Shown: piece after piece, positions 16,547-53,427 of the stretch
Layout of the letters: the number at the start of each line of letters is the position of its first letter
How positions within the stretch are numbered: the first letter of the stretch is position 1
Source: an uncultured Bacilli bacterium
GTDB lineage: Bacteria > Bacillota_I > Bacilli_A > RF39 > UBA660
DNA: 53,427 nucleotides
NCBI GenBank assembly: GCA_944371905.1
Contig: CALVYA010000009.1
Location: 1 to 53,427, forward strand
Reading direction: 5' to 3'
The notes under the pieces: model-generated
Seen by the model: the letters and a program-made list of their open reading frames with translations, nothing else
Database searches by the model: none
Told to the model about the DNA's origin: nothing
Program-made: the position numbers and the translations under genes

Positions 16547-16579
16547 AAAAAGAGGAATTATTTGTTTAATTCCTCTTTT
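16547..16579. terminator. Bidirectional terminator between glmS and clpB
   Basis: AAAAGAGGAATT (16547-16559, within a longer A run) pairs with AATTCCTCTTTT (16568-16579). A and T tracts on either side serve both convergent genes. The clpB stop codon lies in the stem. Confidence 0.85.
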
Positions 16580-18684
16580 AAAGTTAGCTTATTGTTCTCT
16601 ATATCTACAGTTACTGTACTATTGTATTTTATTTTATCATTAATAATATCATTTGCAATTAGAGTTTCAAGGTTTCTACTAACAAACCTTTTAATAGGTC
16701 TAGCACCATATTTTTCATCGTATGATTCATTGATAATAAAATCTTTAGCTTGCTTAGTGACAATAATGTTTATTCTTTTATCCTTTAATCTAAGTTCTAG
16801 ATCTTGTATTATTTTATCTAATATTTCATATACTACATTTTTAGATAATGAATTAAATATGATAATTTCATCAATTCGATTAATAAACTCAGGTTTAAAA
16901 GTATGTTTTAATTCAGTCATTACTAAATTATCAGCATTTTCTTTATTTTCTAGGATGTATTCACTACCTAAATTAGACGTCATGATAATAATAGTATTTT
17001 TAAAATCAACAGTTCTTCCTTGTGAATCTGTAATTCTTCCATCATCTAGTATTTGTAATAAAATATTAAAGACATCCTTATGAGCTTTCTCAATTTCATC
17101 AAATAAGACAATACTATATGGATTTCTTCTTACAGCTTCAGTCAATTGTCCACCATCATCATATCCTACATATCCTGGAGGTGATCCAATTAATCTAGCA
17201 ACTGAATGGGGTTCCATATATTCACTCATATCAATTCGAATCATATGTTTTTCATCATCAAATAATTCGTAGGCTAATGTTCTTGCTACTTCCGTTTTAC
17301 CTACACCTGTAGGACCTAGAAATATAAATGATCCAATTGGTCTATTAGGATCTTTTATTCCGGCTCTAGCACGAATGATAGCATCACTAACTAGTTTTAT
17401 AGCTTTATCTTGACCTTTAACACGTTTTTTCATGTTGTTTTCTAGATTTAATAATTTATCTTTTTCACTACCAACTAACTTGCTAATAGGAATATTAGTC
17501 CATTTAGATATAATAGCAGCAATAGATTCATCATCAACAGTATCGCTAAGCACTTTAGAACTAGCTTTTTGTCTTAATTCATCTAGTTCTTTTTCTAAAG
17601 TAGGCATTACTCCATGGCGAAGTCTAGCAGCAGTCTCTAAATCATAATTATCTTCAGCTGCTTCCAAATTACGACGTGTTTTTTCAATTTCTTCTTTTTT
17701 ACGGTTGATTTTATCATTAATGTTTTTTTCTTCTTCCCAATCATGACGAAGTTTGTTTTCATCTTGCTTTAAATTGTAAATTTTATCATCTAATTCTTGC
17801 AATCTTTTTTTTGAAATATCATCTTTTTCTTTTTTTAATGCTTCTTTTTCTATTTGCAATTGCATTATTTTCCTTGTTAATGTATCAAGTTCTACTGGAA
17901 CAGATTCCATTTGTACTTTAATAGTAGCACATGCTTCATCAACTAAATCGATAGCTTTGTCAGGAAGAAACCTACTGGTAATATAACGATCTGACAAAGT
18001 AGCAGCTGCAACTAATGCTTTATCTTTAATATTTACTCCGTGATATACTTCAAATCTTGGCTTTAAACCACGAAGAATTGTAATGGTATCTAAAACGGTA
18101 GGTTCATTAACTTGAACTTTTTGAAATCTTCGTTCTAGAGCCCCGTCTTTTTCTATATATTTTCGATATTCATTTAATGTTGTCGCACCAATACAATGGA
18201 CTTCACCACGGGCTAACATGGGTTTTAACATATTACCAGCATCCATTGCACCTTCTAGAGCACCAGCTCCTACAATCATATGAATCTCATCTATAAACAT
18301 TATGATTTCTCCATCAGATTCTTTTACTTTTTTTAAGACAGCTTTTAATCTTTCCTCGAATTCACCACGATATTTAGCTCCGGCTATTAAAGAACCCATA
18401 TCTAATTCCCAAATAGTTTTGTTTTTTAGTGAATTAGGTACATCGCCTTTAACAATACGCCATGCTAGACCTTCTACAATAGCTGTTTTCCCTACACCAG
18501 GTTCACCAATTAATACAGGGTTGTTTTTTGTTTTTCTGGATAAAATTCTAGTTAAACTACGTATCTCATCATCTCTACCAATAACCGGATCAATTTTTCC
18601 ATCTTTAACACTTTGTACAATATCACGACCGTATTTTTCGAGAACATTTTCTAAATTTTCTTGATAAGGATTGTTTCCATTCAT
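16558..18684 (-). CDS. clpB: ClpB disaggregase lacking the N-domain
   Basis: This 708-residue Hsp100 ATPase rescues aggregated proteins with DnaK. D1 has Walker A GEPGVGKT, pore loop [16 protein letters not shown] and an ERRFQKV arginine finger. A coiled-coil M-domain (about 240-370) identifies ClpB rather than ClpC. D2 has GPTGVGKT, pore loop [20 protein letters not shown] and the GARPIKR sensor 2. Typical ClpB is about 860 residues; the N-terminal Clp_N repeats are absent and the protein begins at the pre-D1 linker. The ATG has TCCTCC on the plus strand (18692-18697) as SD and a promoter and CIRCE immediately upstream, so the short form is genuine. Confidence 0.93.
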
Positions 18685-18828: not shown

Positions 18829-19044
18829 ATGTATAGTATAGAAGATATTTTGGAAGCATCTAGATTATTGAAAGTTAATTTTGATAAATTTAGTTTAGAT
18901 GATTTAGTAACAGGAGTTAATATTGAAGTAGAAAAAGAAAAAAGAGTAACTAGTACCCTTTTTCTAGTGAGATTTAATTTTTTTAATACCATAACCAATA
19001 ATTTTAAAAAAACATCTCAATCTATTATTACATTTTTTATGTAA
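18829..19044 (+). pseudogene. Truncated DUF5661-like gene
   Basis: A good SD (TTGGAGG, 18816-18822) precedes ATG 18829. The first 45 residues (MYSIEDILEASRLLKVNFDK and LDDLVTGVNIEVE) resemble the start of small DUF5661-type proteins. After EVE the reading becomes unrelated low-complexity sequence and stops at residue 71, where the family would continue with a His-rich loop and a conserved NEFPDYY segment. Downstream (about 19050-19118) a frame reading MERIEKKSNNF may be the remnant of the usual C-terminus. I read this as a gene broken by internal deletion or replacement; the family call is from memory. Confidence 0.45.
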
Positions 19045-19240
19045 TAAACATAATGGAGCGTATAGAGAAGAAGTCGAATAACTTTTCCCATACCAATAAA
19101 TTAGGTAGTAATAACTACTAACTAATAAAATTATATCACAACATTTACATTTTGAAACAAAAAATGTATAAATTCATATCAAATTTATGATTTATCTAAA
19201 AAATGTGATATAATTGTTATTGAAATGGAGGTTATTTATT

Positions 19241-19639
19241 GTGAATGATGAAATGGAAAAAATAACTAGTTCTAAACTACCAATTGATGCTTATAATGAA
19301 ATTAGTTTAGATAGTATTCCTGAAACTGATAATCTAACAAGAACAGAAAAAATAAGAAGACAAAAATTAAAAGAGGAAGAAGAAAGATTAAAATCAGAGA
19401 TTGCTAGAATAGCAAGACAAGCTGAAGATATGGAAGCAGTACTACACGCTGCTGCAAATAAAGTTAAGGCTGACGAAATGCAACAAGGAAGAAAAATTGA
19501 TCCTGAAGAAAGAGATGTAGTAATAATGAGAGAGGCTCTAGTATTTATAGCAAAAGCTGGTACAAGTCGAAGCGATCAAGATAGAATAAGTATAGATAGA
19601 GGAGAATTAGATTCTCACATTAGAGGTGGTAGAAGGTAA
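19241..19639 (+). CDS. Small hydrophilic helical protein, unknown
   Basis: This 132-residue protein has no membrane segment. Residues 30-75 are charged and strongly helical (RTEKIRRQKLKEEEERLK), a likely coiled coil, and the tail is basic (HIRGGRR). GTG 19241 is chosen because GGAGG (19227-19231) sits 9 bases upstream; the alternative TTG at 19214 would precede that SD and overlap the -10 (TATAAT 19209-19214). It lies between a broken gene and the far end of the mobilizable element, so it may be host or cargo. I do not recognise the family. Confidence 0.65.
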   Translation: MNDEMEKITSSKLPIDAYNEISLDSIPETDNLTRTEKIRRQKLKEEEERLKSEIARIARQAEDMEAVLHAAANKVKADEMQQGRKIDPEERDVVIMREALVFIAKAGTSRSDQDRISIDRGELDSHIRGGRR

Positions 19640-19651
19640 TTTCAATTCAAA

Positions 19652-19698
19652 AAAACATAATTGTTGGAGAACGATAGGTTCTTGCTTAATTATGTTTT
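19652..19698. terminator. Long interrupted hairpin at the element's distal end
   Basis: AAAACATAATT (19652-19662) and AATTATGTTTT (19688-19698) are perfect 11-base arms, with an inner AGAAC/GTTCT stem. It begins 13 bases after the 132-residue gene and probably ends that transcript, and perhaps the opposing mob operon. It could also belong to the element end. Confidence 0.55.
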
Positions 19699-19725
19699 AG
19701 GGTTTCAAAAGGAAAAATTCCCTTT

Positions 19726-19774
19726 GCACACACCTATTGGCTCTGCCAATAGAGAAGTGTGTTTTATCTATTGG
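19726..19774 (+). other. oriT: Candidate oriT, MobV/pMV158 type
   Basis: GCACACAC (19726-19733) is followed by CTATTGGC (19734-19741), TCT, GCCAATAG (19745-19752), AGTGTG (19756-19761), TT and a third copy CTATTGG (19768-19774). The pMV158 oriT has the same plan: GCACACAC, two inverted arms, AGTGTG, nick, TT, then a third arm that can pair alternatively. By analogy the relaxase would nick between G19761 and T19762. It lies 36 bp past the 3' end of the mob gene, whereas in pMV158 it is upstream of mobM. Confidence 0.8.
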
Positions 19775-19809
19775 AAATAGATATTACTTGACTAGCAATG
19801 CTCGTCTTT

Positions 19810-22954
<3,145 letters not shown>

Positions 22955-22962
22955 TCATCGGC

Positions 22963-23238
22963 TTAAAAATGGCTTTTAATGTGGTTTTCAAAGTCTTTAA
23001 ACTTTATTTTTTCATCATAACCATTAACAAATATGTCATCACATTCATCAAACATTAAATAATCAATATTATTAACTTTAATGATATGAGGTTTTACATA
23101 AGCAATATTTGTTCCTTTAATACTTTTGATATTTCCATTTGTAATAGTAGGTTTAACACAAGCAAATTTACATATCATCTCAACTTTCTTTAATAAGTCT
23201 TTACTTATCTCTAATTCTTTAGTTTCTATTGTTAACAT
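22963..23238 (-). CDS. Small element-encoded protein, candidate recombination directionality factor
   Basis: This 91-residue protein is not recognised from any named family. It is clearly homologous to the 88-residue product at 51647: both contain the PTI-NG-I-K-N-Y--PH-I--NNI pattern over about 70 residues. In both places the gene lies between a tRNA and a large serine recombinase, in the same direction. Small genes beside serine integrases often encode directionality factors that turn integration into excision; that role is inferred here. It could instead be a regulator or an antirestriction protein. The gap to the recombinase is 47 bp. Confidence 0.7.
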   Translation of the reverse strand: MLTIETKELEISKDLLKKVEMICKFACVKPTITNGNIKSIKGTNIAYVKPHIIKVNNIDYLMFDECDDIFVNGYDEKIKFKDFENHIKSHF

Positions 23239-23263
23239 ATTACCACTCTCACTTTCTTAAATA

Positions 23264-23291
23264 ACAAAAAAACTAACCATTTCTAGTTAGT
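23264..23291 (-). terminator. Terminator in the tRNA-proximal end of the His element
   Basis: Read on the minus strand, ACTAAC and GTTAGT flank the loop TAGAAATG and run into seven T. The same loop occurs in the terminator at 51573 after tRNA-Gly, marking a shared module. Confidence 0.8.
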
Positions 23292-23301
23292 ATTTATTAC
23301 T

Positions 23302-23322
23302 CTCGAAATATAAAAGTTCGAG
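23302..23322. repeat. CTCGAA/TTCGAG inverted repeat next to tRNA-His
   Basis: CTCGAA (23302-23307) and TTCGAG (23317-23322) lie 14 bases beyond the tRNA CCA. The element at tRNA-Gly has the same arms (51547-51561). It could be part of the attachment site or a conserved RNA hairpin. Confidence 0.6.
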
Positions 23323-23335
23323 TTTCATATCATAT

Positions 23336-23412
23336 TGGGGCGAATAGTGGGGATCGAACCCACGCATACCAGAGCCACAATCTGGCGTGTTAACCACTTC
23401 ACCATATTCGCC
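23336..23412 (-). tRNA. tRNA-His (anticodon GTG), CCA encoded
   Basis: A 77-base cloverleaf read on the minus strand. The acceptor GCGAATA/TATTCGC is extended by the G-1:C73 pair that is diagnostic for tRNA-His. The GTG anticodon lies in the loop ATTGTGGC, the T-arm is GTGGG-TTCGATC-CCCAC, and CCA is encoded. It has its own promoter and is followed by the integrated element. Confidence 0.97.
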
Positions 23413-51413: not shown

Positions 51414-51441
51414 TTGACATTAGTAATTATTATGATATAAT
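51414..51441 (+). promoter_or_regulatory. tRNA-Gly promoter
   Basis: TTGACA (51414-51419), a 16-base spacer and TATAAT (51436-51441) with TGA extension: a strong consensus promoter 19 bases before the tRNA. Confidence 0.85.
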
Positions 51442-51460: not shown

Positions 51461-51534
51461 GCGGACGTAGTTTAATGGTAGAACCTCAGCCTTCCAAGCT
51501 GACTACGTGGGTCCGATTCCCATCGTCCGCTCCA
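51461..51534 (+). tRNA. tRNA-Gly (anticodon TCC), CCA encoded
   Basis: A 74-base cloverleaf: acceptor GCGGACG/CGTCCGC, D-arm GTAGTTTAATGGTAGAAC, anticodon loop CTTCCAA, T-arm GTGGG-TCCGATT-CCCAT (with one mismatch), discriminator T and encoded CCA. The second integrative element begins immediately after it. Confidence 0.97.
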
Positions 51535-51546
51535 TAGTGAAATCTG

Positions 51547-51602
51547 CTCGAACTTTTCGAGTCTTGATAAATAACTAATCTAGAAATGGATTAGTTTTTT
51601 TT
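51547..51602 (+). terminator. Shared tRNA-proximal hairpin and terminator
   Basis: CTCGAA (51547-51552) pairs with TTCGAG (51556-51561). AACTAATC (51573-51580) pairs with GATTAGTT (51589-51596) around TAGAAATG and runs into T residues. Both parts recur after tRNA-His. Confidence 0.85.
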
Positions 51603-51646: not shown

Positions 51647-51913
51647 ATGGTAAATATTATTAAAGAAGAAATTTCATTAGAAGAGTCACTAAAAAAGAAA
51701 ATTGAATTTATATGTGAATTTGCTAAAGTACAACCAACTATTATTAATGGTAGTATTAGAAAAATTGACAAGACGAACTTAACTTATATTGAGCCACATA
51801 GAATTATTATTAATAATATTACTTTTCTTGCTTTTAACTATTCTAATGAAATATTTATAGAAAATTTATCAAATAAGATTAAATTATCTGAATTAGAAAA
51901 TTATATAAAATAA
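51647..51913 (+). CDS. Small element-encoded protein, paralogue of the His-element gene
   Basis: This 88-residue protein shares with the 91-residue product at 22963 the core FICEFA-VQPTI-NGSI and YIEPHRIIINNI and a similar C-terminal LENYIK helix. Its position between tRNA and recombinase is the same. It is not recognised from any named family; a recombination directionality factor is the favoured guess. AAAGGA lies before ATG; the terminator just upstream separates it from the tRNA transcript. Confidence 0.7.
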   Translation: MVNIIKEEISLEESLKKKIEFICEFAKVQPTIINGSIRKIDKTNLTYIEPHRIIINNITFLAFNYSNEIFIENLSNKIKLSELENYIK

Positions 51914-51933
51914 ATTAATACCTATTGATAGGA

Positions 51934-51962
51934 TTGACAAATCAAATTTAAAAGTATATTAT
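51934..51962 (+). promoter_or_regulatory. Promoter of the recombinase leader
   Basis: TTGACA (51934-51939), a 17-base spacer and TATTAT (51957-51962). Transcription would start near 51969, giving a leader of about 165 bases before the recombinase start. Confidence 0.7.
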
Positions 51963-52019
51963 ATAAAACCAATAAATGACAAGCAGTATCCGTCTTTTAT
52001 TAGAAAGCGAGGTACATCT

Positions 52020-52091
52020 ATGGTCAAGTGCACAATTAATAAAAAATATAATATGAAATTAAGTGGAGTCAAAGGTATTAGTTTGAACTAG
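52020..52091 (+). CDS. Possible leader peptide (23 residues)
   Basis: ATG 52020 has GAGG (52009-52012) 7 bases upstream and encodes MVKCTINKKYN, MKLSGVKGISLN, then TAG at 52089-52091. The stop codon lies in the 3' arm of the long hairpin that ends in a T run, so ribosomes translating this ORF would disrupt the hairpin. That is the arrangement of translational attenuators. It may instead be a chance ORF. Confidence 0.4.
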   Translation: MVKCTINKKYNMKLSGVKGISLN

Positions 52092-52111
52092 TATTTTTGA
52101 CTCCCTTTTTT
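52065..52111 (+). terminator. Attenuator-like terminator before the recombinase
   Basis: GGAGTCAAA (52065-52073) pairs with TTTGACTCC (52096-52104). The inner bases 52074-52083 also pair with 52086-52095, giving an almost unbroken 19-20 bp stem, followed by CTTTTTT. Only 25 bases separate it from the recombinase start, so it would stop the recombinase transcript unless overridden. Confidence 0.8.
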
Positions 52112-52132
52112 GTTGATAAAAGGAGTTGATAA

Positions 52133-53427
<1,295 letters not shown>

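Follow-up and report, generated by a model that had tools for sequence, protein, structure and literature searches.

A family of small proteins paired with tRNA-targeting large serine recombinases on integrative mobilizable elements of uncultured Bacilli, and its candidacy as a recombination directionality factor

The known recombination directionality factors (RDFs) are accessory proteins that bind an integrase and enable excision (PMC5814800). The factor of phage phiC31, gp3, binds to the zinc domain of its integrase, and a model places it near the base of the coiled coil (PMC5814800). With no common sequence and no fixed position to go by, RDFs are difficult to find. No RDF was identified or proposed for integrative mobilizable elements (IMEs) with serine integrases in a 2017 review (PMC5704250), and the retrieval of the RDF for each large serine recombinase (LSR) was named as a future direction by Durrant et al. 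in 2022 (PMC10083194). Among known LSR elements that insert at a transfer-messenger RNA (tmRNA) 3′ end, the ssrA islands of Dehalococcoides come closest (PMC3146451). The locus described here lies on contig CALVYA010000009.1 (assembly GCA_944371905.1) of an uncultured Bacilli bacterium, analysed as a stretch of 53,427 nt, hereafter the window. It carries two elements, A and B, each with a small gene between a tRNA gene and an LSR gene. The best single explanation, which we hold to be somewhat on the probable side, is that the small protein acts as the RDF of a tRNA-targeting LSR clade found on integrative mobilizable elements of 4–6 kb. The grounds for this reading are linkage, a sparing gene content and the layout of the genes.

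The small open reading frame (ORF) of element A (22963–23238, minus strand) encodes 91 aa, and that of element B (51647–51913, plus strand) encodes 88 aa. In a BLASTP comparison of this single pair, 39 of 88 residues are identical (44%) and 60 of 88 are similar, without gaps (E 9e-28). An earlier note on this DNA had reported a shared core of about 70 residues; the similarity is real, and it extends over the whole protein (88 residues). The same note had placed each small gene with a tRNA on one side and a large serine recombinase on the other, and the ORF positions, the tRNA genes predicted by ARAGORN and the recombinase domains all agree with this. The small ORF starts 97 nt 3′ of tRNA-His(gtg) (23336–23411, minus strand) in element A and 112 nt 3′ of tRNA-Gly(tcc) (51461–51534, plus strand) in element B, and in each copy the tRNA, the small ORF and the LSR follow one another on a single strand. 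The LSR of element A, its integrase, has 622 aa (21047–22915, minus strand); that of element B (52136–53425, plus strand) is cut by the contig end and is 56% identical to the former over the part present; L090 holds a full-length relative of the element B enzyme, 98% identical to it. The window LSRs contain the Resolvase catalytic domain followed by the Recombinase domain and a zinc ribbon, as large serine recombinases do (PF00239, 2.7e-35; PF07508, 8.7e-17), with the zinc ribbon scoring above cut-off in element B and below it in element A. The CcrB model also scores the window LSR, but under its cut-off. Five homologues of the small protein are encoded in the source genome, at least one is present in 139 of 241 genomes from its order, and the same gene order recurs throughout the family; the arrangement in the window is therefore not due to chance.

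Linkage of the two genes was assessed from both sides. Relatives of the LSR were found independently in the order, without use of the small protein, and 40 LSR loci were taken from the listed matches over the whole range of 39–86% identity to the window's LSR, the sole conditions being that the LSR start and the sequence upstream of it were present. A small ORF lies directly upstream on the same strand in all 40 (hidden Markov model E 1e-22 to 1e-43), with the LSR open frame about 330–950 nt beyond it, and a tRNA or tmRNA gene stands directly 5′ of the small ORF in 28. When loci were sampled by the small protein, an LSR was found downstream in 59 of the 70 with enough sequence, and it is still present in 12 of about 20 stretches that hold the most divergent homologues. 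The earlier note had proposed scoring how often homologues neighbour serine recombinases, and counts taken from either partner bear out its expectation. Within the tested sample, the small gene is inseparable from this LSR clade. In several of the loci without an LSR downstream, a nested foreign LSR element splits the module: in L094, L105, L112 and L154 a different LSR element stands directly behind the small gene. These nested elements run antisense (L094:1116–2978, L105:7363–9297, L112:7398–9200 and L154:4081–5562). On the far side of the nested element in L094 and L105 lies the expected LSR, shortened by roughly its first 12 codons, which would fit the conserved LSR start as the target site of the nested element. 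A few intact small genes are solo (L091, L099 and L145). Decayed small genes occur at L008:5355–5555, L064:4107–4375 and L055:2737–2826, with LSR fragments adjoining in L055 and L064, which suggests that they are remnants of former elements. Distances between small proteins are correlated with those between their LSRs (r 0.86), a co-diversification that is compatible with integrase binding but not specific for it. By LSR part, the zinc and coiled-coil region gives the highest value (0.82; partial correlation 0.66 given the catalytic domain), but all LSR domains show a correlation, and differences of this size do not point to an interface.

A search of genome contigs with an alignment of 24 members as the query identified at least 536 places that encode the small protein. 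The 80 kept matches are almost all from metagenome-assembled genomes of uncultured Bacilli, Tenericutes or Firmicutes, with hosts that include Candidatus Onthousia, Aphodocola and Coprovivens. In wider genome samples, matches were confined to the family of the window's host and one other family of the class. No homologue was found in the phage collection or in the plasmid collection, and among viral contigs only one encoded a homologue. The median ratio of nonsynonymous to synonymous substitution rates (dN/dS) is 0.096 over 321 pairs, a value that points to strong purifying selection on the small gene. Its product has about 88–99 aa and is of the accessory type, without a recombinase domain. 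Profile searches of Pfam, NCBIfam and PHROG with the small protein gave zero matches, and a sequence search of the PDB gave none. An AlphaFold model built from 64 sequences (predicted local distance difference test, pLDDT, 93.8) is mostly beta, with one helix near each end, and a Foldseek comparison with the PDB and viral models returned nothing at E ≤0.001 (best E 0.44). The fold thus modelled is apparently new; to our knowledge, the known RDFs have no common fold. The family had been called undescribed in the earlier note, and the empty profile, PDB and Foldseek searches support that description; the literature search was limited to open-access papers, and a later description elsewhere is possible. 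Identity as the Xis of a tyrosine integrase was rejected on two grounds: the small gene is partnered with a serine recombinase, and the mostly beta fold does not suit an Xis. A match to Tn916 Xis was weak (0.0035) and confined to one of 64 members.

Element A is a complete unit of 4.28 kb (19054–23335). Besides the small protein and the LSR, it encodes a MobV/Mob_Pre relaxase of 418 aa (19810–21066, minus strand; PF01076, 2.2e-30; NF041497 above cut-off) and one 141-aa ORF (19214–19639, plus strand; no Pfam match below 0.1) that is presumed to be cargo. The last six bases of its target gene tRNA-His, GCCCCA, form the attL core. The attR (19054–19125, minus strand) comprises the element end, or P arm, and the core GCTCCA at 19054–19059. 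L085 has a 92% identical counterpart of this left arm; there the homology stops at GCCCCA, at the joint with another element, and the position of attR and the length of element A follow from this stop. No empty site beside the window's tRNA-His could be read in relatives via the far-side gene (16558–18684), because the relatives lack a conserved gene order. Boundaries were instead obtained from the P-arm match in L085 and from an element present at two sites, L152 and L155. These copies, in tRNA-Thr(ggt) and tRNA-Leu(caa), are 99.93% identical over 5,917 bp, with identity that begins at GGCACCA and stops at GCACCA and with unrelated flanks on both sides. To judge from such sequences, LSR elements have moved recently. 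The L152 element (5.9 kb) has four genes, namely those for the small protein, the LSR, a Mob_Pre relaxase and one cargo protein. The cargo place behind the relaxase (L152:11301–12689) holds a different gene in nearly every element.

Among the 54 loci with at least 5 kb of sequence, the small gene is present in 54 (by sampling), the LSR in 44 and a Mob relaxase in 33, and no other gene family occurs in more than five. Besides the LSR, no further gene is conserved across elements with the small gene. The module of small gene and LSR, often with a Mob relaxase and then cargo behind it, heads integrative mobilizable elements of 4–6 kb. Element A and the L152 element have the make-up of an IME: an integrase of their own, defined att ends, a relaxase and no conjugation apparatus. 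Tandem arrays of two or three modules in a row stand behind a tRNA or tmRNA gene at L119, L129, L137, L156 and L161. Beside the attR of element A, a host ORF (18829–19044) seems truncated in comparison with a genome of the same genus (G001, L206), which may reflect rearrangement of the adjoining flank.

Of the 130 loci with enough upstream sequence, 91 have a tRNA or tmRNA gene within 200 nt of the small ORF; in 84 of these the distance is 88–121 nt (median 105 nt). The targets are Thr (23), Leu (20), Gly (19), tmRNA (11), Cys (7), His (6) and Trp (2), with one each of Phe, Arg and Met, and CCA ends every one of these tRNA and tmRNA genes. Many of the loci without a tRNA are tandem junctions, in which the end of another element lies upstream and closes in GCACCA, GCTCCA or GCCCCA. 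Insertion is exact: the elements join tRNA or tmRNA genes at the NCCA that closes the 3′ end. LSRs that are 94–97% identical occupy Thr, Leu and tmRNA genes, which have A before CCA, while Gly and Cys targets, with T before CCA, share other close LSRs. Since very similar LSRs use the tails of different tRNAs and of tmRNA, a habit that is unusual for LSRs, we suggest that the discriminator base together with CCA sets the target.

The layout between the tRNA and the small ORF is the same in the two window copies and in the family: the element arm of attL, which contains an inverted repeat (H1), is followed by an A+T-rich hairpin (H2) and a T-run. In element A, the element side of attL, or P′ arm, spans 23302–23335 (minus strand), with H1 (CTCGAA...TTCGAG) at 23302–23322, and the terminator-like H2 (CTAAC...GTTAG followed by seven T) lies at 23266–23290 (minus strand). 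In element B, in which tRNA-Gly ends in GCTCCA, the P′ arm is at 51535–51561 with H1 at 51547–51561, and H2 is at 51575–51602, all on the plus strand. The H2 hairpin and T-run lie a median of 31 nt ahead of the start codon of the small gene; a simple rule finds H2 in 91 of 124 leaders, and it is too A+T-rich for a strict terminator scan. H1 was found in 119 of 124 leaders, but is suggestive only, because 70 of 124 shuffled leaders pass the same loose rule. In neither window copy did the coding strand show a promoter-like site in the stretch from the tRNA to the small ORF. The tRNA-Gly gene of element B has a perfect sigma-70 consensus promoter (TTGACA-16-TATAAT, 51414–51441). Overall, promoter-like sites were about as numerous in the scans as in shuffled sequence, and a match to the consensus does not prove function. 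In element B, the gap ahead of the LSR (51934–52104, plus strand) contains a promoter-like TTGACA-17-TATTAT (51934–51962) and a terminator hairpin of 18 pairs (52065–52104), and gaps with both features recur in other elements. More broadly, 51914–52135 and the equivalent gaps have a promoter-like site and, immediately ahead of the LSR, a terminator; a short ORF may be present as well. Such a leader resembles an attenuator of integrase transcription. A TATAAT (19130–19135, minus strand) at the left end of element A faces outward; in the excised circle it would read via attP into the small gene.

If the small protein is an RDF, the LSR alone would join the attP of the circular element to the tRNA end, which would serve as attB. 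The small protein, when made, would bind the LSR and switch it to excision between attL and attR; the likeliest place of binding would be near the zinc domain and the base of the coiled coil, as in phiC31 gp3. Because the small gene sits behind a terminator-like hairpin with little room for a promoter of its own, its transcription would presumably be weak and would come from the host tRNA promoter by run-through. The LSR would be read from its separate promoter-like site through the attenuator-like leader, and with separate signals the two activities could be set independently. A broader proposal is that a single RDF family has co-diversified with the LSR clade of NCCA ends into matched orthogonal sets, and that run-through from the tRNA promoter ties excision to tRNA transcription; we put this forward tentatively, as a doubtful extension.

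Several observations weigh against an RDF function. Profile, PDB and Foldseek searches linked the small protein to no known RDF, nor to any other protein, by sequence or fold; such a link is helpful rather than defining for an RDF. RDF genes are often not adjacent to the integrase gene, and the small gene could equally serve regulation or integration. Co-diversification with the LSR is expected from linkage alone, and in the mutual information between the two proteins no LSR domain stands out (effective number of sequences, Neff, 17). One subclade of the small protein is, moreover, paired with a protein that has an HxH motif (HUH-like) and has no LSR. It comprises 10 rows of the tree, eight of them labelled, with support of 97/73 and a position between LSR clades, and its small gene is mostly still found at a tRNA 3′ end. 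The partner, which takes the place of the LSR, has an invariant W-H-x-H motif (L009:7322–8047, L073:7719–8171, L071:3206–3607, L258:1333–2172 and L260:1358–2140); its AlphaFold model has a pLDDT of 53 and was left out of the fold search. These may be elements moved in trans, or the small protein may have been re-used. Finally, the LSR of Tn4451-type elements excises without an RDF (PMC5704250). The proposal of the earlier note that the small proteins are directionality factors receives partial support from linkage, as the best explanation, and is qualified by the HxH subclade and by Tn4451.

The small protein might instead be a regulator of expression that acts through the hairpins of its own leader or the attenuator-like terminator and so confines LSR production to the right time, with an LSR that is reversible or free of any RDF, as the Tn4451 LSR works in both directions without one (PMC5704250). 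The two hairpins between the tRNA and the small ORF, and the strong terminator and promoter-like site between the small ORF and the LSR, are seen in many elements and would suit such a role, yet the leader features can also be explained as a tRNA terminator and an attachment-site arm. With no match to a DNA- or RNA-binding family, a mostly beta model without a fold neighbour and a co-diversification with the LSR protein that regulation does not need, though linkage could cause it, this role is considered unlikely. An accessory function in integration, by which the small protein would help the LSR to recognise or synapse tRNA ends, would account for near-identical LSRs on Thr, Leu and tmRNA targets, and the linked clade, whose module is headed by the small gene, targets many tRNA isotypes, which is unusual for LSRs. 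The NCCA core and a clade-specific discriminator base could, however, explain the targeting without a helper, and serine integrases normally integrate without an accessory protein, so that we judge this function improbable.

A function unrelated to recombination, such as control between tandem copies or interaction with the host, would make the linkage a consequence of position at the tRNA end. The HxH subclade, in which the small gene stays at the tRNA end although no LSR is present, the intact solo copies and the common tandem arrays all speak for it, but an LSR association in 40 of 40 loci exceeds what position alone needs, and several copies without a whole LSR resemble remnants or interrupted elements. 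This is the least probable of the alternatives, at the far end of what we would entertain. An RDF function remains the preferred reading: the small protein is encoded together with a serine integrase at all 40 LSR loci, and the mapped ends of element A and of the L152/L155 element enclose both genes.

A large LSR family is here paired one-to-one with a candidate RDF, which can be compared with several described systems. Like phage RDFs such as phiC31 gp3 (PMC5814800), the candidate is encoded in the same element as a serine integrase, is an accessory protein without a recognised catalytic domain and, by analogy, would turn integration into excision between attL and attR. It differs from them in having no profile match and an apparently new fold, and in that its gene lies directly before the integrase gene at the attachment site, on mobilizable elements rather than phages. 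The ssrA islands of Dehalococcoides also have a CcrB-like serine recombinase, insert at the tmRNA 3′ end, occur in tandem and have been described as integrative and mobilizable (PMC3146451). These islands have a single target gene and a six-gene module with a second recombinase, DsiA, besides DsiB, and their dsiB gene overlaps attL (PMC3146451), whereas elements of the window type use many tRNA isotypes as well as tmRNA and have one LSR and one small protein. The serine-integrase IMEs of the Tn4451 type are likewise small elements with an LSR, a relaxase and cargo (PMC5704250); in contrast to these, the window-type elements target the tRNA 3′ end, which is left intact, and the candidate RDF is universal among them. 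As in the described multi-targeting LSRs, close relatives integrate at several targets, but the published example has a TT core in A/T-rich surroundings (PMC10083194), while the targets of the window type share the NCCA end of tRNA genes.
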